From a virus, in IMG/VR virus record IMGVR_UViG_3300037042_000863, positions 1 through 27,359 of that record: DNA of 27,359 nucleotides. One strand, 5' to 3'. Shown in pieces: positions 4,242 through 23,910 of the stretch. A program made the translations under genes and the position numbers. Under the pieces are notes generated by a model, which ran no database searches, was not told where the DNA came from, and saw nothing but the letters and a program-made list of their open reading frames with translations. The stretch's first letter is position 1; each line of letters starts with the position of its first letter.

Positions 4242-5181
4242 CGTTTGGGGTGACCATGTTCTGAACTACTGACTTCAATTGAGTAGTGTAGTCCTCGTGG
4301 TATTTCATCATTCGTTCGTTCAACTCCTTTCGGTTGATAGATGTCTTTGCGTTGAACCGTTCGGTGTTGTAATAGGCATACTCCATGATGGCCTCTGCCG
4401 TTCGGTACATTATCGGCAATGCCAATACATTACGGTGCGCACAAAGCCAACTTTCGTTATCACATACCAATGAAAAATTAACGCTCAATCCTGCCGTATC
4501 GGTGTGTCCGTCAATGTTCGCAAGGATAGGTGTTGCACCCGTGGCATATTTGATGCTTCGGCCTGTGATGAACCCGTTCAGGTTATATACCCCTCCGTTG
4601 CACGTTGTACAGCCCTCGCCTATCAATGAAGTAAGGTAGTTGGGTATCGTGGTGCAATCGTAAACGAACGCTATCCTACGCTGTCTCTTTTCCGCATTGT
4701 AGGTCTTGTCAACGTAAGTGGTTACGACCTGACCCGCTACCGAAGTGACCGCTATCGTGTCCAACGTTTGGCCAGTCATGGTATCAATGACAAGGATATT
4801 CATTGCACCCGAATAGTTCAGGTAGGTGTCAATCGCGGAAACGTAAAGCGACAGGTAGCTTTGAGTATTGCATACCTTCAATTCAATGCCTCGGAAGTAA
4901 GCGGCTGCGGCTTTCAATGTCTGCGTTTCCGCAATGAATCCAGCGCGTTTGTTTTCAATAATTGTGCGAGGGATAAATGATGCCGTGTACATGTCATTGA
5001 CCTCACGGACAACGTTACGTATCGCAAAATCTATCTTGTCCTCAATGAGTTCAGGTGCATCAGCATAGTCTGCGCTAACGTACCGTTCAGCCTCCCTAAT
5101 CGGAATAAGCTGATCCAACAGTAACCCGCTTACCGAAGTGCATCCACCTTTATAGCTTATGATGTTATCGAAACAGGCCAT
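4186..5181 (-). CDS. Head-tail connector-like structural protein
   Basis: A 331-residue protein directly downstream of the major capsid gene. It has several Cys clusters: GGCTSVSG near residue 13, EGCTTCNGG near the middle and ICYTCKPR at the C-terminus. The central part is beta-rich (NILVIDTMTGQTLDTIAVTS). I do not recognise a named family. A gene of this size between capsid and tail-completion genes is usually a head-tail adaptor or neck protein. A hairpin separates it from the capsid gene, so its expression is probably lower than that of the capsid. Confidence is high that it is a gene and low on function. Confidence 0.6.
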   Translation of the reverse strand: MACFDNIISYKGGCTSVSGLLLDQLIPIREAERYVSADYADAPELIEDKIDFAIRNVVREVNDMYTASFIPRTIIENKRAGFIAETQTLKAAAAYFRGIELKVCNTQSYLSLYVSAIDTYLNYSGAMNILVIDTMTGQTLDTIAVTSVAGQVVTTYVDKTYNAEKRQRRIAFVYDCTTIPNYLTSLIGEGCTTCNGGVYNLNGFITGRSIKYATGATPILANIDGHTDTAGLSVNFSLVCDNESWLCAHRNVLALPIMYRTAEAIMEYAYYNTERFNAKTSINRKELNERMMKYHEDYTTQLKSVVQNMVTPNDGICYTCKPRAKSVVTLP

Positions 5182-5201
5182 TGAATATTTTTAATGAAAA
5201 G

Positions 5202-5230
5202 AGGAGGGTCGGGACATCCCCAACCCTCCT
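5202..5230 (-). terminator. Terminator-like hairpin after the major capsid gene
   Basis: Arms AGGAGGGT (5202-5209) and ACCCTCCT (5223-5230) pair perfectly over 8 bases, with a further GGG/CCC pairing inside the loop. On the minus strand the stem is followed by CTCTTTTCATT, an imperfect T-rich tail. It lies 13 bases after the capsid stop. It may be a partial terminator or an mRNA-stabilising 3' hairpin that raises capsid output relative to downstream genes. Confidence 0.6.
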
Positions 5231-5242
5231 TCAATTTCAGGT

Positions 5243-6295
5243 TTACGAATTGACCACGTTGATCTCTGCGAAGCCTTTAACACCATCCAAATGGTCACCC
5301 GTTTGGTACATGTCGTCAGGCAAAGCAACGAGTTTCGTGGTTGCTGTAATGGTAACGTCAATCACTCCGCAATCGTGTTTGATAACGATGTCGTAAGGAA
5401 TACCCAACGCACCCATGATCTGACCGTATGATTGGTTTGCATCTTGCGCACCGAACAGTCCAGTCCATCGGTTGTAGTACAGCACTTGAAGCGCACCGTT
5501 AGCAACCGCCCATGTGGTCGTTTGGTTTCCCTGTGCAGCCGCAACGAAACGGTCACGGATCGAAGCCATTCCATACTCGCGTTGGATGGCCGCAATGTCA
5601 AGACCGTAATCGGTGCAACATCCAAGTTGCATCAACCGTAGGTAGTTGTGAAGTGTGAATCCACCAACAAGGGTAGCGGGGCCGAAACTTGAAGCCTCAA
5701 GTGCCGATTGAACCGCTTGCATTGTAGCCGCAAATGGTTCGTCTGCTGAACCCGTTCTGAGGGTCTTAACTTCAATTACGTCACCATTTACGGTCAGGAA
5801 TGGAATACCTGAAACATCGGTTGACCATCCGCCTAAAAGAGCGTTGGCCTGTGATGCGTTCTTGTTGTTCACCGCTACATCCATTGCAGCTACCAGTTTA
5901 CCGATCTGATCCTGAAACCAAAACTCGTTACTGTCGCAAGAGGCTTTCAGGTCTTCCACATCGAACTGCTGCTCAAAGAACAGGTTCTGAGTGGTGTCGA
6001 TTGAATACTCCGTTGACGTGTTTCCGCGTTCGGTTGTGGCAGCGCAATAGTTCGTGACGTTGGTCTGAACTGTGCTTGTCAGGATTCGCGGCTGATAGGT
6101 AAGTTCAACCGTTCTGATCTTTGATCCGCCCGGACTTACGCGCATTCCCAGATCATTACGATTGAGTGGCGACATAAGGAACTCCGAAAACGGGATCTTG
6201 TCCGTGAAAAACTTGGCGTTCTCATTCTCGAAAACATTATCCAAGCGGTCTTGTAGGTTCGGACACGCTACAAGAGTTGAGGGTGTATAAGACAT
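5243..6295 (-). CDS. Major capsid protein
   Basis: A 350-residue protein that follows a scaffold-like coiled-coil gene. It has typical capsid composition: few charges, many Ala, Thr, Asn and Gly, with alternating beta and helical segments (LTYQPRILTSTVQTNVTN; WFQDQIGKLVAAMDVAVNN; ITATTKLVALPDDMYQTGDH near the C-terminus). It sits alone between two hairpins (terminator upstream at 6428-6451, hairpin downstream at 5202-5230) and has a TAnnTTTG promoter candidate 102 bases before its ATG, as expected for the most abundant virion protein. No protease gene is obvious nearby. I did not identify the fold from motifs; the call is by context, size and composition. Confidence 0.75.
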   Translation of the reverse strand: MSYTPSTLVACPNLQDRLDNVFENENAKFFTDKIPFSEFLMSPLNRNDLGMRVSPGGSKIRTVELTYQPRILTSTVQTNVTNYCAATTERGNTSTEYSIDTTQNLFFEQQFDVEDLKASCDSNEFWFQDQIGKLVAAMDVAVNNKNASQANALLGGWSTDVSGIPFLTVNGDVIEVKTLRTGSADEPFAATMQAVQSALEASSFGPATLVGGFTLHNYLRLMQLGCCTDYGLDIAAIQREYGMASIRDRFVAAAQGNQTTTWAVANGALQVLYYNRWTGLFGAQDANQSYGQIMGALGIPYDIVIKHDCGVIDVTITATTKLVALPDDMYQTGDHLDGVKGFAEINVVNS

Positions 6296-6472: not shown

Positions 6473-7291
6473 CTATGCCTTATGCCTTACAAGCCTACTC
6501 TGCCGAACACCATCGGCATTTGAGGCAGGTGCGGGTGGAGTGTACGGCCTTTGTTCAGTGCGTTTCAGGTCGGCAACTTTGAGAATCTTATTCTTTTCGG
6601 CCTCCAATCGGATAGCGGTCAAGGGATCAAGGAACTCACCCGCCTTCTTTGGGTCGGGTATTCGGTGACCGTCCTTCAATATCACTGGCTTGTCACCATC
6701 AAGTTCAATCTTGTATGCCTCATTGATAGCCGTAATGAATCCCTTTCGCTCAAGTTGTGTGGCGGTATCACTCAGGAACTCATTCGCCTTTGACCATATT
6801 TCAGTCACAGCCTGATCCTTCTTGAAGCTCTGAGTGAACTGGGTAAATTCAGCTTCTTTAGCCGTATACTTTTCCGCAAGTTCAGCCCGCATCTTGTCAA
6901 CGTCTGAGAATTTGGTGTTGAGTTGGTTGTACTTATCCTCCCACTCCTTTACCGCCTCCGAAGGTTTGCCCGCTTTCTTTTCAAGTTCAGCTATTTTGGC
7001 CGTGTAGCTTTCATCCTTCTTTGCCGTAAGCAATCGGGCAAGGTCACCAACGGGCAACTTCGTTTCGTCCTCTGAAAGTTCAATGCCACTTTCCTTCGCA
7101 GCCCGTTTCAATTCCTTGGCGAAGTATCGGGTACTTTCCCCGCTTATCGTTGCCTTAATGGTTTCATCCTCAACCGCCCTATCCCTACGGATGAACGTCT
7201 TGTCGAATGATTCTTTGAACGTGTCTTCGGTTGCCTTGTCGTCAAGTTCAATGCCTATGTAGGCGAGGATATTGTCTTTTTCTACTGCCAT
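6473..7291 (-). CDS. Capsid scaffolding protein
   Basis: A 272-residue, highly charged protein directly upstream of the capsid gene. The central region, about residues 90-160, is a coiled coil rich in Lys, Glu and Ala (IAELEKKAGKPSEAVKEWED; MRAELAEKYTAKEAEF). The C-terminus is a basic tail with Pro-rich linker (RPYTPPAPASNADG, then RQSRLVRHKA), matching the usual scaffold design in which a basic C-terminal helix binds the capsid protein. Size and position fit a scaffold that templates procapsid assembly. A terminator follows its stop. Confidence 0.75.
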   Translation of the reverse strand: MAVEKDNILAYIGIELDDKATEDTFKESFDKTFIRRDRAVEDETIKATISGESTRYFAKELKRAAKESGIELSEDETKLPVGDLARLLTAKKDESYTAKIAELEKKAGKPSEAVKEWEDKYNQLNTKFSDVDKMRAELAEKYTAKEAEFTQFTQSFKKDQAVTEIWSKANEFLSDTATQLERKGFITAINEAYKIELDGDKPVILKDGHRIPDPKKAGEFLDPLTAIRLEAEKNKILKVADLKRTEQRPYTPPAPASNADGVRQSRLVRHKA

Positions 7292-7292
7292 G

Positions 7293-7796
7293 TTATTGTG
7301 CGTTTTCTAATTCGTTTACCATTTGTCTCAGTTTCTCGATACGTTTCACCGTACCGTGCTTTTTCCCGTGTGAATCCAAGATATTACGCAACTTGTCCTC
7401 TTCGGATAGTTCGGTACTAAGTGATTCGATTTCGGCCAATTGCTCATCAGAAGTAAGGTCAATTCTGACTGGATGAACATTGACGTAATCTACTTCCGAA
7501 TTGCCAACGCTTGATTTTTCGGGTTCATCTTTGGTTTCGGTATCCAAGTGTTCAAATATGTCGGTCGCATTGAAAAGCGTTTTAAGGTAGTTGTAACGTG
7601 CGATAAGATGGTCTTTCGCGGGTGTGCCGTTGAATGTTTCTCCCTCGACCTTCTTAGGAATGTTCACGTCCTGAATAATGAACGGGTTCGCATCATAAGC
7701 CCATTGTGCCGACTGGCTCATAAGCCATGAGATCAACACTTGTTTCTTACGCCCTGTTGCTTGAAATACTATCGTTGTCTTGTCAATTAGTGCCAT
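7293..7796 (-). CDS. Hypothetical protein upstream of scaffold
   Basis: A 167-residue protein lying one base from the scaffold gene, so the two are probably co-translated. The N-terminal half has mixed hydrophobic segments (TTIVFQATGRKKQVLISWLM). The C-terminal third is acidic and helical, with a likely coiled coil (EQLAEIESLSTELSEEDKLR; VKRIEKLRQMVNELENAQ). I do not recognise it. Position suggests a virion assembly accessory, but nothing in the sequence proves that. Confidence 0.6.
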   Translation of the reverse strand: MALIDKTTIVFQATGRKKQVLISWLMSQSAQWAYDANPFIIQDVNIPKKVEGETFNGTPAKDHLIARYNYLKTLFNATDIFEHLDTETKDEPEKSSVGNSEVDYVNVHPVRIDLTSDEQLAEIESLSTELSEEDKLRNILDSHGKKHGTVKRIEKLRQMVNELENAQ

Positions 7797-7797
7797 C

Positions 7798-8667
7798 CTA
7801 TCCTATCATTTTATCGCGCATCACTACGCTGTTCTTGTACTTTACGTTGTGCTTGAATACCTCGTTTTTCAGAAACCTATCGTAGAACTCTTTGAAATCA
7901 GCCTTGACCATTGTATTTGAACCGCGTCCGTTTCCGAACATCGAAAGCACGTAGTAACCCTCGCGAAGTTCAGAAATAGAAAGGTGCTTGTTTGGAAAAT
8001 AGATAGGTTCATATTGGAACTTAGCGTCCATCTTAGCCCTTGCGATCGCACCGCCAATGATAAGTTCATCGGGTAGGTTCTTGCCCCACTTGATAAGTAG
8101 CTTGGTTCGGTCTGTGAATGATGAACCGTTGAGATTGATAGCGTCACGTATCAACGCGGTTGTTTCCTTAGACTTTCGCGCAAAATGCCAACTGGATTGA
8201 ATGGCTTGGAAGGTATCCGAATCCTTTAGCTTGAACTCGCCCCAAATGTCATCATTCGTAGCCCAAACGGAGTAATTGATAACGTCCGACTTACCACCTG
8301 ATCCACGAACATCTGTCAGGAAATTACGCCCGTCACTCTTTGCATCTGAATACCACTTCGATAGGTCTTTCAATGAAAGCGCGTCAACGTCCAAGAATAG
8401 ATACTCCTTGAAATACTTTGTGGCGATAGGATACACGCACAACTTAGCGTAACCCGCATCAAGCATCCCGTTAGGATTAGTAATGCTTTCGTCAATCTCA
8501 TGGAATAGGTCGAATACTTTCAGTTCGTCAGTCGCAAGGTATCGAAGCCCCGCATCGTGAATGAGAAGTATCTTGGTGTCGGGTGTGAATTTCTTGATAG
8601 ACGCGGCCAAATTGTAAGCCGCATAGAAGTAACCGCGCTTGCCGAAAACCGTTAAAGCAATGTTCAT
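7798..8667 (-). CDS. GT8-like glycosyltransferase
   Basis: A 289-residue protein that starts MNIALTVFGKRGYFYAAYNL, a common opening of nucleotide-sugar-dependent GT-A glycosyltransferases. The metal-binding DxD motif is DVD at 93-95, within YLFLDVDALSL, as in family GT8 and relatives. It would transfer a sugar from a nucleotide donor to an unknown acceptor: host glycan, phage protein or DNA. It lies among virion genes and may share a late transcript with the scaffold. A promoter-like TATATTTG ends only 5 bases before its ATG, so its mRNA could be leaderless. The acceptor cannot be read from sequence. Confidence 0.72.
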   Translation of the reverse strand: MNIALTVFGKRGYFYAAYNLAASIKKFTPDTKILLIHDAGLRYLATDELKVFDLFHEIDESITNPNGMLDAGYAKLCVYPIATKYFKEYLFLDVDALSLKDLSKWYSDAKSDGRNFLTDVRGSGGKSDVINYSVWATNDDIWGEFKLKDSDTFQAIQSSWHFARKSKETTALIRDAINLNGSSFTDRTKLLIKWGKNLPDELIIGGAIARAKMDAKFQYEPIYFPNKHLSISELREGYYVLSMFGNGRGSNTMVKADFKEFYDRFLKNEVFKHNVKYKNSVVMRDKMIG

Positions 8668-9763: not shown

Positions 9764-9790
9764 CAAATGTACGGATTATTCAATTACCAA
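9764..9790 (-). promoter_or_regulatory. Promoter candidate for the probable major tail gene
   Basis: The minus strand carries TACATTTG (9764-9771), matching TAnnTTTG, with TTG at 9788-9790 and a 16-base spacer. It lies in the 95-base gap before the ATG at 9688, one of the few real intergenic gaps in the window, and gives a leader of about 70 bases. Confidence 0.5.
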
Positions 9791-10419
9791 CCGATAGCAT
9801 CGTCAATGCGCCTATGTTCGTGTCCGATGGTGCTGAACCGTCCAATATGCTGCATAAGGCTTGGAGTGTGAAAGAACTGCAAATAGCCCATTTGGTGAAT
9901 TGCTTCGGGAATCGCGTGGTCAATCTGTTGGTTCTTGGCGTAGTTGTCGCGATGGTTCAATATGTACGGGTGCTTCAATATCTTCTTTGCAACATCGCGC
10001 CTGAACAGATAACCACCACCCCAACTTGAAGCCCAACCGCCTTTAATCTCGTGCCATCCTTTCGTGTTCGGAAACTTACTTGCCATTCCTTTAGGCGTGT
10101 ATAGTGCCAAATACCCGACATAAGGATTTATATTGAACTGCCTTTCAGCCATGTTCTGCCATCCTTGACGAAGTTTAACATCGTCAGGGAATATGCCAAC
10201 TATGTCAGCGTCCGACTTGCATAGGTCTTCCAACACTCGATAGTAATGCTTGAAGCATCCGACATTATCGCCCAACTCCTTTACTGCGAAATCCGTTCGA
10301 TGTGGAAATGTAAACCCATCAGGATAGACCGTGCAATCGGGGTGAAATACATTGTGTTGCATAGTATGGAATGTCTCCACCTTGCGCGGAATCCATGTGA
10401 TGCCTATTGCTATCTTCAT
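9784..10419 (-). CDS. Glycosyltransferase-like protein
   Basis: A 211-residue protein starting MKIAIGITWIPRKVETFHTM. An acidic metal-binding motif sits in IVGIFPDDVKL (residues 73-83), where GT-A transferases hold DxD. Downstream GGWASSWGGGYLFRRDVAKK resembles the acceptor-side loop of GT2/GT25-like enzymes, in which a transferase checks or positions the substrate. Its ATG overlaps the acyltransferase stop as ATGA, so it is the last gene of the glycan cluster. Donor and acceptor are unknown. A DNA- or protein-glycosylating role cannot be excluded. Confidence 0.65.
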   Translation of the reverse strand: MKIAIGITWIPRKVETFHTMQHNVFHPDCTVYPDGFTFPHRTDFAVKELGDNVGCFKHYYRVLEDLCKSDADIVGIFPDDVKLRQGWQNMAERQFNINPYVGYLALYTPKGMASKFPNTKGWHEIKGGWASSWGGGYLFRRDVAKKILKHPYILNHRDNYAKNQQIDHAIPEAIHQMGYLQFFHTPSLMQHIGRFSTIGHEHRRIDDAIGW

Positions 10420-10934
10420 TCCTTTGTCTTCGCGGGGTTACCGTAAATAGTCGTATTGGCCTGAACCTCTTTGACAACGACCGAACCAAGACCGACCAAA
10501 GCATCATTTCCGATAAGTATCCTGTTGCGAACGGTCACGCCCAACTTCAACTTCACCCCGTCCTTTATCATGCAATAGCCGCCTATTATCGTTCCCGTGC
10601 AAATCTCACAGTTGCTGCCAATGAACACATCATGCCCGATGTGAACGTGTGCCATTATGATATTGCTCGACCCGATGGAAGTACATTCGCCATCTTTGAA
10701 CGGCCTTTGAATTGTGACAAGTTCGCTTATCACATTGTCATTTCCGATAACCACATGACCTTTGAAATCAAGCTGTGAGACACCTCGCATCTCGCCATTT
10801 GAACCGATAACGCAATAAGCCCCTATCCAGTTACCTGTACCAAGTTTCACGTTAGGGTGGACTATCGCGGTACGGTGAATGTGGTTGCCGTCTATGTTTA
10901 TCCAATCGCTGTTATACAAGTCCTGATTTGACAT
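10416..10934 (-). CDS. LpxA-like left-handed beta-helix acyltransferase
   Basis: A 172-residue protein built almost wholly of hexapeptide repeats from about residue 20 to 165 (TAIVHPNVKLGTGNWIGAYC; HVVIGNDNVISELVTI; VFIGSNCEICTGTIIGGYCM), the mark of the left-handed beta helix. SSNIIMAHVHIGHDVFIGSN resembles the active-site strand of LpxA, where a His accepts a proton from the sugar hydroxyl. It ends YGNPAKTKE, the usual terminal motif of sugar acetyl- or acyltransferases. It is shorter than LpxA (about 260 residues) and lacks its helical C-terminal domain, so a sugar O- or N-acetyltransferase role is likely. It overlaps its neighbours on both sides. Confidence 0.8.
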   Translation of the reverse strand: MSNQDLYNSDWINIDGNHIHRTAIVHPNVKLGTGNWIGAYCVIGSNGEMRGVSQLDFKGHVVIGNDNVISELVTIQRPFKDGECTSIGSSNIIMAHVHIGHDVFIGSNCEICTGTIIGGYCMIKDGVKLKLGVTVRNRILIGNDALVGLGSVVVKEVQANTTIYGNPAKTKE

Positions 10935-12228
10935 GATCCGTCCATTCTTTATTGGTGAAATGCGGGTTGCTGAACCCTCTTTTTTTAGCTACAAGTATTT
11001 CGTCAGGTAGACCGCTTATGTCCTTCAATATCCTTTTTCCATAAAGGTATTTTTGGGGCAAAGACAAAGCGAAATCAACCAGTTCATTGTCAAGGAACGG
11101 ATACCGCGTTTCCATCGTATGCCACCCGCCCATTCTGTCCTCAACGACCAATATCCCGCGAAGGTATGCCCAATCGTAAGCATCATGGGTAATATCGTAA
11201 CGCTTGCCATAAGCCCCCGTTCGGTTGATTACCGCCTGAATGTCCTTATCGTATCGGTGTGTATATCCTTTGAACACCTCGTCACCGCCCGCACCTGAAT
11301 ATACCACTTTACAGAACTTCGATGCAAGTTCGGCCAACGCAAAGTTCGTGTAGCAACTTCCAACCTTCGGGTCGTCCAACGCTTTCATTACCTCGCTGCC
11401 ATGCCTTTCAGCCAAATCATCATTGCATATCATGGTATAATGTTGCCCCTTACTATTGGTCTTAATCCCGTTAATCTCGCTCAACCCCGTAAGGTAATCC
11501 ATTGAGAATGAGTAGTCAGGTTTGAACCATTTAGCTATCATGCCGCTATCAATCCCACCACTAAGGTAGCACCCCGCGCCATCGTATCGGTTACGCCAAA
11601 CCACGCGCTCCCATATTTCGGTAAGCCTATGTTTAGCGTCTTCATAACTTATGTCAATCTTTGAAGGTCGGACAAAAGGCAATTGACCGACACGCTGAAC
11701 GCCTACGTAGATGGTGTCAGGTGTCATTACTCCGAGTGAATGATCCCAATCGGCCATAGCGTCAAGGTCTATCTTTAGGTCAGCAACGGCTTTCAATCCC
11801 TTAACCTCTGAGCAAATGAATTTGCCATAACTGTAAAGCTGTTTGATCCCGTAACGGTCTGTGAACCAATCAAACTTACCTGTGGTTGACGAATGATACA
11901 CGACAGCAAAGAATCCGTTGAGCCTATCAAGCCCGAAGCCACTATCCACCCAATAAGCCAACAGTTGCGTATCGCTTCCGAACGACCTACCTACTTCCAT
12001 GCTAAGTTCCTTCCAGTTGCTTATGAACCCGTTAAGCCAAAGGGTCGTATGCCCGTATTTCGCGGGTTGGTCGAATACGGTTGTTGTGATAGGTAAATGG
12101 GTGAAATATACCGAACCGCCTTTAAATGATGTGACGTGTGATGTTATTCCGCGTCTATGAATCTCAGCGCCCATAACATGAGCGTCAATTCCATGCCGTT
12201 CACTTAACGCTAACGCTATCCCACACAT
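10912..12228 (-). CDS. Asparagine synthetase B-like glutamine amidotransferase
   Basis: A 438-residue two-domain enzyme. It starts MCGI, so Cys2 can be the N-terminal nucleophile of a class II glutaminase, which fixes the start. The N-terminal domain also has LNGFISNW, GSDTQLLAYW and DRYGIKQLY. The synthetase domain has the PPi loop YLSGGIDS, VVYSGAGGDEVFKGY, RYPFLDNELVDFALSLP and KKRGF. It should release ammonia from glutamine and use ATP to amidate a carboxylate. It is shorter than E. coli AsnB (554 residues). The acidic residue usual at the third position of SGEGSDE is Ala here, which hints at a substrate other than aspartate, such as a sugar acid. It lies between glycosyl- and acyltransferase genes. 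Confidence 0.85.
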   Translation of the reverse strand: MCGIALALSERHGIDAHVMGAEIHRRGITSHVTSFKGGSVYFTHLPITTTVFDQPAKYGHTTLWLNGFISNWKELSMEVGRSFGSDTQLLAYWVDSGFGLDRLNGFFAVVYHSSTTGKFDWFTDRYGIKQLYSYGKFICSEVKGLKAVADLKIDLDAMADWDHSLGVMTPDTIYVGVQRVGQLPFVRPSKIDISYEDAKHRLTEIWERVVWRNRYDGAGCYLSGGIDSGMIAKWFKPDYSFSMDYLTGLSEINGIKTNSKGQHYTMICNDDLAERHGSEVMKALDDPKVGSCYTNFALAELASKFCKVVYSGAGGDEVFKGYTHRYDKDIQAVINRTGAYGKRYDITHDAYDWAYLRGILVVEDRMGGWHTMETRYPFLDNELVDFALSLPQKYLYGKRILKDISGLPDEILVAKKRGFSNPHFTNKEWTDHVKSGLV

Positions 12229-13054
12229 TGAATCTTGATGTTATGATGGTCGGGTCAATGTAGGCAGTATTCGGCCAAAGTTCAAACGGTGTCATGTTGG
12301 TCGAACTCTTAACGTCAACCGCAAATAGTCCTTTGTCCTTCAATCTGAATGTCTTAACGTGCCGATTGGCCTTTAATAACTTTCCCTGCATTGAATTATC
12401 CAAGAAGTCAGAATGTTGAACCTCCCACGGTTGGCCGTTCCATTCTTTGAGTAGTGACGCGCTAATTACCCGACCTGCACCACAAGTATGTCCGATGCGT
12501 TGCCTATCAACATATCCGCCCCAATAGCTTGCCTTTTCAGTTGTGGTATCGTAAAAGTACCAATCCAACACACCGATGAAGTCAAAGCCTTGTTTCATGT
12601 ATCGGATAAACTCGTTCAACAGTTCCTTTGATATAAGATCGTCAGAGCCTAAACATATAACGTGCGAGTAACCGTCTTCAACCGCCTTGATTGTAGTGGC
12701 GTTCATCTTGGTTGCAAGTGGTTGATTATCAATTTCAATGTACTTGAAACCGTACTTTTCGGCTTGTTTTCGGCTTACCTTTCCCTCACTACCCGCAACT
12801 ATCACATCAACTCCAAGCGTGGCCGTATGTTTGGCGAATATGTCGAATATGTCGGGTCGCTTCCACATTCCAGTTACAATGACTGGTATGACTACTTTAA
12901 TCGGACTTAGTGGTTCGGGTACATGATATTGAGCGTGACCGCTTGCAATGATACGCTCAACAAATTGCGGCTTTAAATTACCCTCGTAAATCAAAGACCC
13001 CTCGGCATGATGGTTGCCGTTGTGGTCGTATATCTGCTTGAGTAGTTTTAGCAA
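12200..13054 (-). CDS. Glycosyltransferase-like protein with short N-terminal extension
   Basis: A 284-residue protein. From residue 53 it shows a GT-A-like core (VVIPVIVTGMWKRPDIFDIF, then VDVIVAGSEG and the acidic motif CLGSDDLI at about 134-141), which would bind a nucleotide sugar through a divalent metal. The first 50 residues (LIYEGNLKPQFVERIIASGH and flanks) look like a separate small domain ending in a Pro-rich linker. The start is TTG 13054, two bases from the lipoprotein stop. Its end overlaps the AsnB-like gene by 29 bases. Donor and acceptor are unknown. Confidence 0.65.
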   Translation of the reverse strand: MLKLLKQIYDHNGNHHAEGSLIYEGNLKPQFVERIIASGHAQYHVPEPLSPIKVVIPVIVTGMWKRPDIFDIFAKHTATLGVDVIVAGSEGKVSRKQAEKYGFKYIEIDNQPLATKMNATTIKAVEDGYSHVICLGSDDLISKELLNEFIRYMKQGFDFIGVLDWYFYDTTTEKASYWGGYVDRQRIGHTCGAGRVISASLLKEWNGQPWEVQHSDFLDNSMQGKLLKANRHVKTFRLKDKGLFAVDVKSSTNMTPFELWPNTAYIDPTIITSRFNVWDSVSVK

Positions 13055-21380: not shown

Positions 21381-23654
21381 TCAAATATACAATTTCTGTC
21401 GGTAACGGATATACTTCTGCACCGCGTCATGGTTGACCAAGTATCTGACCGCATCCAAGTGGTCGGCCTTTTCATGCGCATGCTTTCGGTTGGTCTTAAC
21501 AATTCCACCTTCGCCATCGGCCTCAACGAACTTCATGTCCCGGATAGTATTCGGGCAACGCGGGTCAATCCTGAAATCAATATCATGCGGCAACTCCCGC
21601 GAATGGAATAGCACAAAGTTAAGGTCATTGCGGCTGTTGGAGTGCTTCGGGTTCGGGCTTGTTTGAATCTGCCGTGCCGATAGCCCTAACTCACGCCTTA
21701 TCTGTTCAAAGTTTGAAGCGTTGTCTGACTGACCAAGTTCCTTCTTATTCCCGTTGTAGTCGCCTGTTATTACGCAATTCCAAAGGTAGTGATGGAATTT
21801 GTGCCGAATGTTTGCAACGGCTTGATGCACCGAACCCTTCTCGATTGTCTCCTCCATGAATATATGACAATGGAATCCCTCCTTATCCTGCCAAACGTGC
21901 GAATAGATGAATGCGAACGGCTCGATGTTAAAGTCCATCGAAATGATAAGCTGCCGACTTTCGGAGTGATAGCACGGTTTGATGTGGTGTTCGTCTGACC
22001 AGTTGAAAGCGAAAGGATTGTTGACCTCTTCATCAGCGTCCCAATTACCATACAATAGCCTTTGCTTGTCATAATCGGAACGCATTCTTCCAAGCTGTTG
22101 CTCATACAACTCTTTGAACTTGTCGTTGGGATTGTCGGATAGAAGCGACTGTACAAATGTGATATGTTCGGGCAACGCTTCGGGGTCAACGAACTTTTTC
22201 TTAACCCAATTCTTGCGCGGGTTTCCTGTACTCAAAACCTTCGGGGTCAATCCATACTCATCCAACTTGTAACGGATACGGCTACTAACAATGTCGTAAG
22301 CCTTTTCGGTTATTTCGGTAACCTCGTCAATGAACGCATCGGTGTACTCCGTTGAACCAAGCGAAATAAAGTCGGGGTCGGATGGATATAAGAACAGGTC
22401 TTTTAGAACCGTGACCGAACCGTTAGACCAATTGACCGTGTGCTTCTGTGAGTTGTAATTGAAGTCAACACCTACCTGATAGCCCATTATGTGAGCGACC
22501 TCAAAAAGAGTGACTAAGGTTGATTGTTCTAACGCGGATATTTTAGCCCTACCGATAAGCCCCCGACTTCCAGCATATTGCATCCTTCGGTTTATGTGCC
22601 ACACGCAACCGAACCATGACTTACCGCTATTATGAACGAGTATGTTATCGCGACTAACGCAATAGTTGTGATTGTCCTCAACGCATAGGTCGTAAACGGT
22701 TTCTGTTGAAGGTTGAAACCTGACTGAAAGTATTTCATCCAACCTTATACAACGTGCCTCCAGCTTCTCAAAATCACATCCTTTATTGTGTCCGGTGCTA
22801 CCCCATATTCGTCTGCCAACATTTGACGTGTGTATTTCCTTGGCTTGAACTTCGCGCGTATTTCCATTACTTGCGTTTCGGTCAACTTTGCCGTTCCTAC
22901 CTTTGAACCACGAACACAACAGTTCGGGTGTTGTTGTTCGCCCTTCTCGAAACGGAAACCGCCTTTGCCATTCTTTACAGCGTGTTCGGAGTTCTCCTTT
23001 GCGGATACCCATTCCAAGTTTTCCACGCGGTTGTCCGTCTTTATCATATTGATATGATTCACCTGTTCCTTGTTCAAGTAATGTGGTATCCATGCTTGTG
23101 CAACTACCCTGTGAACCTTTACCGTTCCAGTTCTTGAGTTGGTCTTTATCATTGTTCGAAGATACCCGTGTGCATCCAACGCGGGTTTCATTATCGCGGG
23201 TCGTTTTGAACCTTTCCAATCGGTTGTCAATAGCCGACCCATGTTCGATATTAGATAGCGGTTTTCCGTGTCCAACACGTATTTCCATTGCTCGTTCGGC
23301 AATGTATCCAGCCCGATGCCAAGATCCTTCAAAGTAAAACTCATGATTCTCTGTGCATTTAAGTTCGTAGTTCTTAAATTCAAAGATACATAAACTTTCC
23401 GTTTGAGTGTGCTGCGGGTAGGTAAATGTTTCAAGTACTATCTTGAACTCGGAAACTCCACTATCAATATTGACAGATAATACCGAATCGCCTACTTTAA
23501 TTTGGCTTATCGGTATGTGACCTGTTGATGTATGAACTAAAGTATCGGCTGCAAAACACCCCGCGCCCCCTCCATAGAATGTCTCAGACACCTTCGGGTT
23601 ATTTTCGAGGTAGTGCCACGCCTTAGATTGTTTCTTCGATAGGTCAATGCTCAC
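21381..23654 (-). CDS. terL: Terminase large subunit precursor with intein
   Basis: A 757-residue precursor from GTG 23654. The extein halves join to a 447-residue TerL: Walker A GGGAG (28-32) plus SGKSW (343-347), Walker B FIDEVTE (441-447), coupling motif STGNP (475-479), and an RNase H-like nuclease with Asp in SMDFNIEP (574), GDYNGNKK (632) and KADHLDAVRY (731-734). TerL powers DNA packaging at the portal and cuts the concatemer. Residues 33-342 are an intein lying within the P-loop, so splicing is required for ATPase activity. It overlaps TerS by 11 bases, the normal TerS-TerL order. It is not followed by the portal gene, which lies about 18 kb further on. Confidence 0.92.
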   Translation of the reverse strand: MSIDLSKKQSKAWHYLENNPKVSETFYGGGAGCFAADTLVHTSTGHIPISQIKVGDSVLSVNIDSGVSEFKIVLETFTYPQHTQTESLCIFEFKNYELKCTENHEFYFEGSWHRAGYIAERAMEIRVGHGKPLSNIEHGSAIDNRLERFKTTRDNETRVGCTRVSSNNDKDQLKNWNGKGSQGSCTSMDTTLLEQGTGESYQYDKDGQPRGKLGMGIRKGELRTRCKEWQRRFPFREGRTTTPELLCSWFKGRNGKVDRNASNGNTREVQAKEIHTSNVGRRIWGSTGHNKGCDFEKLEARCIRLDEILSVRFQPSTETVYDLCVEDNHNYCVSRDNILVHNSGKSWFGCVWHINRRMQYAGSRGLIGRAKISALEQSTLVTLFEVAHIMGYQVGVDFNYNSQKHTVNWSNGSVTVLKDLFLYPSDPDFISLGSTEYTDAFIDEVTEITEKAYDIVSSRIRYKLDEYGLTPKVLSTGNPRKNWVKKKFVDPEALPEHITFVQSLLSDNPNDKFKELYEQQLGRMRSDYDKQRLLYGNWDADEEVNNPFAFNWSDEHHIKPCYHSESRQLIISMDFNIEPFAFIYSHVWQDKEGFHCHIFMEETIEKGSVHQAVANIRHKFHHYLWNCVITGDYNGNKKELGQSDNASNFEQIRRELGLSARQIQTSPNPKHSNSRNDLNFVLFHSRELPHDIDFRIDPRCPNTIRDMKFVEADGEGGIVKTNRKHAHEKADHLDAVRYLVNHDAVQKYIRYRQKLYI
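22629..23558 (-). mobile_element. Intein in the TerL Walker A loop
   Basis: Precursor residues 33-342 (310 residues). Block A starts at Cys33 (CFAADTLVHTSTGHIPISQI, then KVGDSVLS). Block B is CTENHEFYF with Thr101 and His104. Block F is at about 315-333 (STETVYDLCVEDNHNYCV). Block G ends ILVHN with His341 and Asn342, followed by Ser343 as the +1 nucleophile. All key splicing residues are present, so it should splice by the Cys1/Ser+1 route. Blocks A-B and F-G add up to roughly 115 residues, the size of a mini-intein. The roughly 195 residues between them are hydrophilic with no endonuclease motif in this frame; the same DNA carries an HNH gene in the +1 frame. Confidence 0.9.
22745..23344 (-). 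CDS. HNH homing endonuclease nested out of frame in the intein
   Basis: A 199-residue frame, +1 to the TerL precursor, from ATG 23344 to TAA 22745. Domains in order: NUMOD4 (about 14-60; PNEQWKYVLDTENRYLISNM, then GRLL), HNH (about 70-125; VHRVVAQAWIPHYLNKEQVN, then HINMIKTDNRVENLEWVSAK) and a C-terminal helix-turn-helix (RQMLADEYGVAPDTIKDVIL). HNH enzymes of this group cut DNA at long sites and spread their host element. The ATG lies in the codons for block B (CAT GAG) and the gene ends just before block F, so it fills the classical endonuclease slot. The open frame continues upstream to a TTG at 23434, but the domain starts after Met at 23344. Confidence 0.85.
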   Translation of the reverse strand: MSFTLKDLGIGLDTLPNEQWKYVLDTENRYLISNMGRLLTTDWKGSKRPAIMKPALDAHGYLRTMIKTNSRTGTVKVHRVVAQAWIPHYLNKEQVNHINMIKTDNRVENLEWVSAKENSEHAVKNGKGGFRFEKGEQQHPNCCVRGSKVGTAKLTETQVMEIRAKFKPRKYTRQMLADEYGVAPDTIKDVILRSWRHVV

Positions 23655-23910
23655 TATGGACGTTAATGACTGGAACGTTTATCTTATCGCCTTGCGTAGT
23701 GTGGTCAATCTGTTGCTTTGGCAATCCGTAGAAGTATTTGAAGAACAGTTCAACCGCCCACCGTTCACCGTCTTGAAGCCCCGCGTTAAATGCTATCATG
23801 GCCTTTGGTTGAAGCGGTGTAAGTGTCTCAATAAGTTTCTGCTCTTCTGACCTTGCGGGTCGGCCTCCTTTATTTCCGATTGTTCCGCTATTGTTCTTTC
23901 GCTTATCCAA
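23644..23910 (-). CDS. terS: Terminase small subunit
   Basis: An 88-residue protein ending 11 bases into the TerL frame. It begins with a basic, Gly-rich segment (MDKRKNNSGTIGNKGGRPAR), then SEEQKLIETLTPLQPKAMIA and the segment ERWAVELFFKYFYGLPKQQI, which matches small terminases of Bacteroidota phages in which a short helical domain is followed by a basic-acidic tail. TerS binds the packaging site and loads TerL. The start used is TTG 23910. No ATG is available downstream near the conserved N-terminus, and an in-frame stop lies six codons upstream. A promoter candidate and a palindrome lie just before it. Confidence 0.75.
   Translation of the reverse strand: MDKRKNNSGTIGNKGGRPARSEEQKLIETLTPLQPKAMIAFNAGLQDGERWAVELFFKYFYGLPKQQIDHTTQGDKINVPVINVHSEH

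Follow-up and report, generated by a model that had tools for sequence, protein, structure and literature searches.

I-HmuI (PDB 1u3e), a nicking homing endonuclease of the NUMOD4-HNH type, is the product of a gene in a group I intron. Dassa et al. reportedly found, in 2009, natural split inteins among metagenomic fractured genes in which the two halves flank a free-standing endonuclease gene, and UvsW of both Salmonella phage S16 and Proteus phage PM2 has this layout as well. Inteins with an in-frame LAGLIDADG endonuclease are known in the large terminase subunit (TerL) of mycobacteriophages (PMC5050341), and out-of-frame HNH genes have been described in mycobacteriophage DNA methylases, as the ShiLan domain and the Pacc40 gp60 insertion (Arsenault, Gosselin, Gogarten 2025, PMC11855218). 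The ShiLan element is the closest precedent for the locus described here and is not an intein; for an out-of-frame endonuclease within an intein, we found no prior report in the open-access PMC literature, to which the search was limited.

The locus lies in a stretch of viral DNA of 27,359 nucleotides (IMG/VR record IMGVR_UViG_3300037042_000863; hereafter the window), with all features discussed below on the minus strand. A preliminary description of this sequence had reported an HNH endonuclease gene nested out of frame within a TerL intein, and our analysis confirms that observation and supports the interpretation given to it. The terL gene (21381..23654; 757 aa, GTG start) encodes a large terminase subunit precursor whose reading frame runs from 23654 to 21381 with no interruption; it was assigned to PHROG 979/3717 (terminase large subunit) and matched Pfam Terminase_3 (1e-5). 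TerL residues 33–342 form an intein of 310 aa (22629..23558), inserted in the Walker A motif between GGGAG and SGKS. Sequence and alignment A7 revealed every splicing residue: C1, the TxxH of block B (TENH, 23343..23354, in which T69 and H72 are invariant columns of A7), the HN of block G (VHN) and the +1 nucleophile S that follows it; block F reads VYDLCVEDNHNYCV. Pfam PT-HINT and Intein_splicing matched the two ends of the intein frame, and the same search gave no endonuclease domain in its middle, so that the earlier statements on intact splicing blocks at both ends and a center devoid of an endonuclease both stand. An Rfam scan of positions 22400–23900 returned no group I or group II intron family and no intron RNA.

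Structure prediction divides the intein into three parts. The N-terminal part (IntN, intein residues 1–97, blocks A and B, 23268..23558) and the C-terminal part (IntC, residues 265–310, blocks F and G, 22629..22766) are predicted by AlphaFold2 to be folded, with 10-residue pLDDT means of 74–95 over residues 1–90 and 86–92 over residues 271–310. Residues 98–264 (22767..23267), which are the HNH gene read in the intein frame, are predicted to be disordered (pLDDT <50), a prediction based on a shallow alignment of 15 rows. The closest folds to the two ends in Foldseek are inteins and bacterial intein-like (BIL) domains, which together with the Pfam matches supports a HINT fold. With its splicing residues, its HINT fold and a conserved-motif insertion site that is empty in relatives (see below), the insert has the properties of an intein and is expected to splice. 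It differs from an ordinary large intein, where the endonuclease domain is read in the intein frame, in that the HNH is read in +1, and from a split intein, where IntN and IntC occupy separate ORFs, in that a single open frame spans both.

The overprinted gene (22745..23344; 199 aa plus stop, +1 relative to the intein) starts at the ATG at 23344..23342 and ends at the TAA at 22747..22745. Pfam identified a NUMOD4 motif (23150..23293, 1.9e-6) and an HNH_3 nuclease motif (22988..23119, 3.5e-9), and helices predicted at residues 156–165, 173–180 and 184–193 mark a C-terminal helix-turn-helix (HTH) region (22766..22879), so the complete NUMOD4-HNH-HTH protein with its own start and stop that had been proposed is indeed encoded, the HTH being assigned from predicted helices only. 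Residues H78, N96, H97, N105 and N109 are intact and correspond to invariant columns of alignment A8. The AlphaFold2 model of the protein has a mean pLDDT of 86.5; I-HmuI is its only relative in the PDB by sequence (7.5e-26) and also the top Foldseek match by fold (1.6e-7). The gene had been placed exactly between blocks B and F. This holds for the stop, which sits about 15–20 residues ahead of block F, and not for the start: the ATG overlaps the CAT codon of the catalytic His72 in block B (CATG). HNH residues 1–17 (MSFTLKDLGIGLDTLPN, 23294..23344) overprint block B and the helix after it, a stretch whose intein-frame translation is HEFYFEGSWHRAGYIAERA, and a homologous N-terminus is found in two free-standing relatives of the HNH (L153 and L069).

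How the HNH would be translated bears on one alternative, in which a +1 (or -2) ribosomal frameshift in or near block B yields a fusion of the TerL N-terminus, IntN and HNH. We identified no clear ribosome-binding site at the HNH ATG, and the nested relative L060 carries ACG in its place, which would leave a downstream TTG or a similar codon as its start; for both reasons the start codon is not firmly assigned. The leader of the window ATG ranks at the 95th percentile of non-gene ATGs in a model of the phage's own gene starts, a weak signal given that real genes reach only the 63rd percentile in leave-one-out. The missing ribosome-binding site and the ACG of L060 would fit a frameshift, as would the conservation of the overlap region at the DNA level between the window and L060. 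However, the open stretch upstream of the HNH frame ends at different points among relatives, visual inspection revealed no shared slippery motif, an ATG is present at or close to block B in most nested members, and free-standing L153 and L069 have an ATG at the same residue as the window HNH start. We therefore consider a frameshift unlikely and favor internal initiation. An RF2-type frameshift (CTTTGA), considered separately, is not supported; it would link frames other than those of the intein and the HNH.

The arrangement is recurrent, contrary to the singularity implied by the preliminary description, and hidden out-of-frame HNHs outside inteins had already been published (PMC11855218). 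A search for +1 HNH genes in other TerL inteins yielded 15 further distinct inteins (L060, L077, L079, L080, L082, L091, L103, L152, L157, L159, L160, L164, L167, L168 and L170), all with the HNH in +1 and an open intein frame, in very different terminases. Scanning with the single window HNH returned nothing but free-standing homologues, each of which has stops in its two other frames. The TerL protein, scanned against IMG/VR, led to L060, which has a terminase 32% identical over the best aligned stretch, an intein at the same site and its HNH in +1; further nested relatives surfaced only in two-sequence and alignment-based scans of IMG/VR. Among genome contigs, a C-terminal alignment gave none, and the full HNH alignment gave L170, an NCBI MAG contig. 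The nested NUMOD4-HNH family is known here from uncultivated contigs and one MAG only. Pfam or PHROGs called the submitted hosts L080, L091, L103, L152, L159 and L170 terminase large subunit; the host gene of L164 matches intein models only and was called TerL by its similarity to other members. An alignment of PHROG 979 into the intein-frame shadow region of L152 had hinted at a member among known phages, and tblastn of the L152 intein in the phage collection gave no match.

These relatives bear directly on a trivial explanation, namely that the HNH is truly in frame and that two compensating indels from assembly or sequencing flank it. The window is a metagenomic contig, and two such indels might in theory displace the frame of the segment between them. 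Yet 15 more distinct contigs, taken from different samples and including the NCBI MAG, have the same +1 layout, which rules this out for practical purposes, and the purging of stops across the HNH (quantified below) would be unexpected in a frame that is not read. No homologue with the HNH in frame with the intein was found, and neither frame of any nested relative contains a stop.

We examined whether the open intein frame could arise by chance from the HNH coding sequence. As the HNH is read in +1, any of its codons that ends in T and is followed by one beginning with AA, AG or GA creates a stop in the intein frame. In the nested genes (n = 14), T-ending codons occurred at 0/928 such positions vs 507/1677 elsewhere (Fisher p about 1e-111, to be read as a ratio and not as independent trials, the sequences being related). 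Free-standing homologues exhibited no such avoidance (526/1515 vs 919/2598, p 0.68), nor did split-intein homologues (131/328 vs 187/532, p 0.17), and both contain 12–29 stops in the intein-equivalent frame. Permuting synonymous codons of the window HNH gave a mean of 5.7 intein-frame stops, with 0/5000 trials stop-free; with extein codon usage, the mean was 12.4 stops and no sequence was stop-free, and resampling from the gene's own codon usage gave a stop-free frame with P = 0.0006. For the first eight nested genes, synonymous permutation recovered an open intein frame in none. The openness of about 200 intein-frame codons noted earlier is thus real, and chance is ruled out as its cause by codon reshuffling and by the homologues.

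Substitutions between close relatives indicate what each frame is selected for. Counts at intein positions 1, 2 and 3 for L080/L082 were 7, 1 and 28 in the flanks and 27, 5 and 7 in the overlap; for L077/L079, they were 20, 7 and 32 in the flanks and 42, 20 and 13 in the overlap. The peak therefore moves from intein position 3 in the flanks to intein position 1 (equivalent to HNH position 3) in the overlap, showing that the HNH is the constrained protein and that the intein frame is mainly kept readable. The intein frame shows weak similarity in excess of that imposed by the HNH (z 0 to 4.6), part of it due to shared ancestry. The shadow peptide is more hydrophilic (mean GRAVY -1.32) than its counterpart in free-standing and split homologues (about -1.0, p 2e-4). 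Per-frame comparison, which the preliminary description had suggested, thus shows two open frames that are both under selection: the HNH frame displays conservation at the protein level, and its intein counterpart avoids stops and retains blocks A, B, F and G.

The same data speak to the possibility that the element is decaying, with the HNH or the intein already a pseudogene and the dual openness a recent relic. The endonuclease does degenerate in places, as L167 lost its NUMOD4 through a deletion that preserved both frames. Against this, the HNH residues are intact, substitutions in close pairs are biased to HNH third positions, and dual openness persists across nested homologues at 38–56% HNH identity to the window; we regard decay as very improbable.

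The distribution of the element suggests mobility. Intein-free TerL relatives are available (L052, at 95% aa identity, L053, L054, L055 and L061), including TerL genes at 72–91% identity, and their empty site reads GGGAG(G/S)GKS or GGAAGGGKS. Among the window, L060 and L159, identity is 55–58% in the HNH and 48–52% in the intein ends, but only 28–32% in the terminase (55–57% in the HNH and 30–32% in the terminase when the window is compared with each of the other two), which suggests that the intein and HNH moved horizontally as a unit. Divergent phages thus carry the arrangement at one and the same TerL P-loop site, and close relatives have empty sites. Linkage of the HNH to TerL in most nested loci found would also fit a different role, that of a packaging helper comparable to the terminase-assisting, terminase-adjacent HNH proteins of other phages (cited in PMC11855218), rather than a homing endonuclease. 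The patchy presence of the element, with relatives free of both intein and HNH at 95% TerL identity, argues against such a role, as do the I-HmuI architecture and the occurrence of the same HNH family between split halves of helicase or primase genes (L092, L115). A packaging function accordingly seems to us improbable, and a homing endonuclease remains the preferred identity.

Beyond the nested genes, the HNH family occurs in two other settings. It is free-standing immediately upstream of intein-free terL in L069, L072 and L074, which were read directly, and it lies between IntN and IntC genes of TerL (L154, L161, L162) and between split-intein halves of DnaB-like or primase-helicase genes (L115, L092). 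At its N-terminus, free-standing L153 (MNYTLESLGIELDSLPNEQW) resembles the window segment MSFTLKDLGIGLDTLPNEQW, the segment that overprints intein block B in nested genes. This match is most simply read as an escape from a nested intein. In L154, L161, L162 and L115, IntN and IntC share a frame with the HNH in +1, and the split cases contain 23–28 stops in the intein-equivalent frame. The split members form one weakly supported clade in the HNH tree (87/35), which does not settle the direction between nested and split forms. We favor a nested-to-split direction, since one stop and one start would suffice for it, whereas the reverse would require the removal of about 25 stops.

Other nucleases are also encoded out of frame in inteins. 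Two inteins, a C-terminal one in the TerL of L068 and the second one of L077, carry a zinc-ribbon HNH in +2, with weaker permutation results (P 0.02–0.03). In L063 and in the isolated Vibrio phages 1.088.O, 1.194.O and K391, a helicase intein carries a DUF559-type nuclease in +1. This nested ORF, of 263 codons in the Vibrio lentus phages 1.088.O and 1.194.O (MG592463.1 and MG592563.1), is unannotated in the Vibrio phage records and exhibits 0/71 risk codons per genome. Between 1.088.O and 1.194.O, substitutions at intein positions 1/2/3 numbered 32/3/0 inside the ORF and 75/45/268 elsewhere. A sample of 23 stretches with the motif IKCTENH amounted, by our reading, to about 17 distinct inteins, of which 3 are complete nested cases and the rest inteins with in-frame LAGLIDADG or HNH, or mini, split or truncated inteins. 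An out-of-frame LAGLIDADG ORF in a helicase intein (L266/L275) was rejected as a further nuclease type; block G falls in a third frame there, and we therefore judged the gene broken or mis-sequenced. We propose, tentatively and with somewhat less than even confidence, that overprinted inteins constitute a general, overlooked class of mobile elements, with unrelated nucleases (NUMOD4-HNH, zinc-ribbon HNH and DUF559-type) each placed out of frame in phage inteins, and a stepping stone to split inteins and free-standing, gene-linked homing endonucleases. The stepping-stone proposal follows from the ease with which a stop and a start would convert nested to split, and from the free-standing TerL-linked HNH, whose N-terminus is still a block-B overprint.

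Taken together, we favor a mobile intein that splices in cis and carries its homing endonuclease as an independent overprinted gene, the product of which is a free protein that acts on intein-free terL, and we assign this reading a probability of roughly 80%. The sequences show selection on both frames; splicing, internal initiation with HNH translation, and cleavage are inferred from them. Ribosomes reading terL would produce one precursor in which the HNH region serves as a disordered linker of ~167 residues, and the two folded intein ends would come together across it to splice TerL. Some ribosomes would instead initiate internally at the ATG at 23344 in block B and release a free, I-HmuI-like HNH protein of ~23 kDa. 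This protein would nick or cut intein-free terL at the P-loop coding sequence, and repair would copy the intein, together with the HNH, into the competing allele. As TerL is essential, a phage unable to splice it would not survive, and stops in the intein frame would therefore be purged.

If this holds, endonuclease and splicing activity can sit on separate polypeptides while sharing DNA; the endonuclease could be regulated or lost separately, and its DNA could not be removed or frame-shifted without harm to an essential host gene. Such elements may connect the ordinary, hidden and split versions of this type of mobile element, offering a testable route to two puzzles—the origin of split inteins, and the way in which free-standing homing endonucleases come to be linked to a single gene. 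Surveys of inteins in a single frame would call them degenerate or endonuclease-less and miss the enzyme. The example in isolated Vibrio phages makes bench testing possible.

Compared with known systems, the window HNH shares with I-HmuI the order NUMOD4, HNH, C-terminal HTH, but I-HmuI is intron-encoded, whereas the window gave no intron RNA in the Rfam scan. Fractured genes resemble the loci in which this HNH family forms an independent ORF between IntN and IntC (L115, L154, L161, L162, L092), and differ from the window, where the intein frame is unbroken through the endonuclease gene and splicing would be in cis. In-frame TerL inteins have in common with the window the site in the ATPase domain, blocks A, B, F and G, an endonuclease between B and F, and a patchy spread (PMC5050341); they fuse the endonuclease as a domain, while in the window it would be a separate protein in another frame, leaving a linker rather than an enzyme in the intein. 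The ShiLan domain is likewise an out-of-frame HNH insertion with an open host frame, a disjunct distribution and a puzzle over its translation, but it has no splicing domain and is thought to remain in the methylase (PMC11855218). The window overprint, in contrast, lies within an intein with intact splicing blocks and a HINT fold, in an essential gene, and selection was tested in both of its frames.

We found inteins with out-of-frame nuclease ORFs in helicase genes as well as in TerL. The isolated Vibrio phage L251 (MG592463.1), and likewise the isolated Vibrio phages L282 and L283, carry an intein-bearing helicase (1593–4295 in L251), and the intein contains an unannotated +1 ORF (2254–3042 in L251) whose product is zinc-ribbon-like with a DUF559-type nuclease. 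Comparison of this ORF between L251 and L282 revealed 32/3/0 substitutions by intein codon position; the nuclease ORF is under strong purifying selection. One helicase gene of contig L063 holds two inteins (5001–5825 and 6519–7433), each with a nested +1 ORF: a DUF559-type nuclease in the first, and in the second an ORF (6703–7422) with weak zinc-ribbon matches, which looks HNH-like by eye. A LAGLIDADG_2 ORF out of frame within the helicase intein of records L266/L275 (1496–2512) was rejected as a nested case, since block G and the C-extein lie in another frame, indicating a broken gene or a sequencing error.

TerL itself has a second intein site in its C-terminal region, ahead of CQDAIRY/CLMMRM. 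In contigs L077 (4065–4895 and 4298–4837) and L068 (488–1459 and 751–1401), the +2 frame of the intein at this site encodes a zinc-ribbon HNH; the L077 TerL thus contains two inteins, with a different out-of-frame HNH in each. In the nested TerL case L167 (1035–1772), the NUMOD4 of the HNH has been deleted, and both reading frames remain open. In L069 (466–1134 and flanks), a TerL 5′ fragment stopping at the start of Walker A (QLLYGGAAG) is followed by the free-standing HNH gene and then by a different, complete TerL N-terminus (VLYGGGVFSGKS), an arrangement resembling a scar left by HNH-driven TerL replacement.

Elsewhere in the window, an asparagine-synthase-like gene and a hexapeptide transferase (10416–12228) lie amid structural genes; together with neighbouring ORFs of no assigned function (12200–13054, 9784–10419 and 7798–8667), they possibly form a glycan or virion modification set.

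UvsW of Salmonella phage S16 (L277; gp114/gp114.1/gp115) and Proteus phage PM2 (L278) is annotated as two separate helicases, which are split-intein halves flanking a free-standing ORF.
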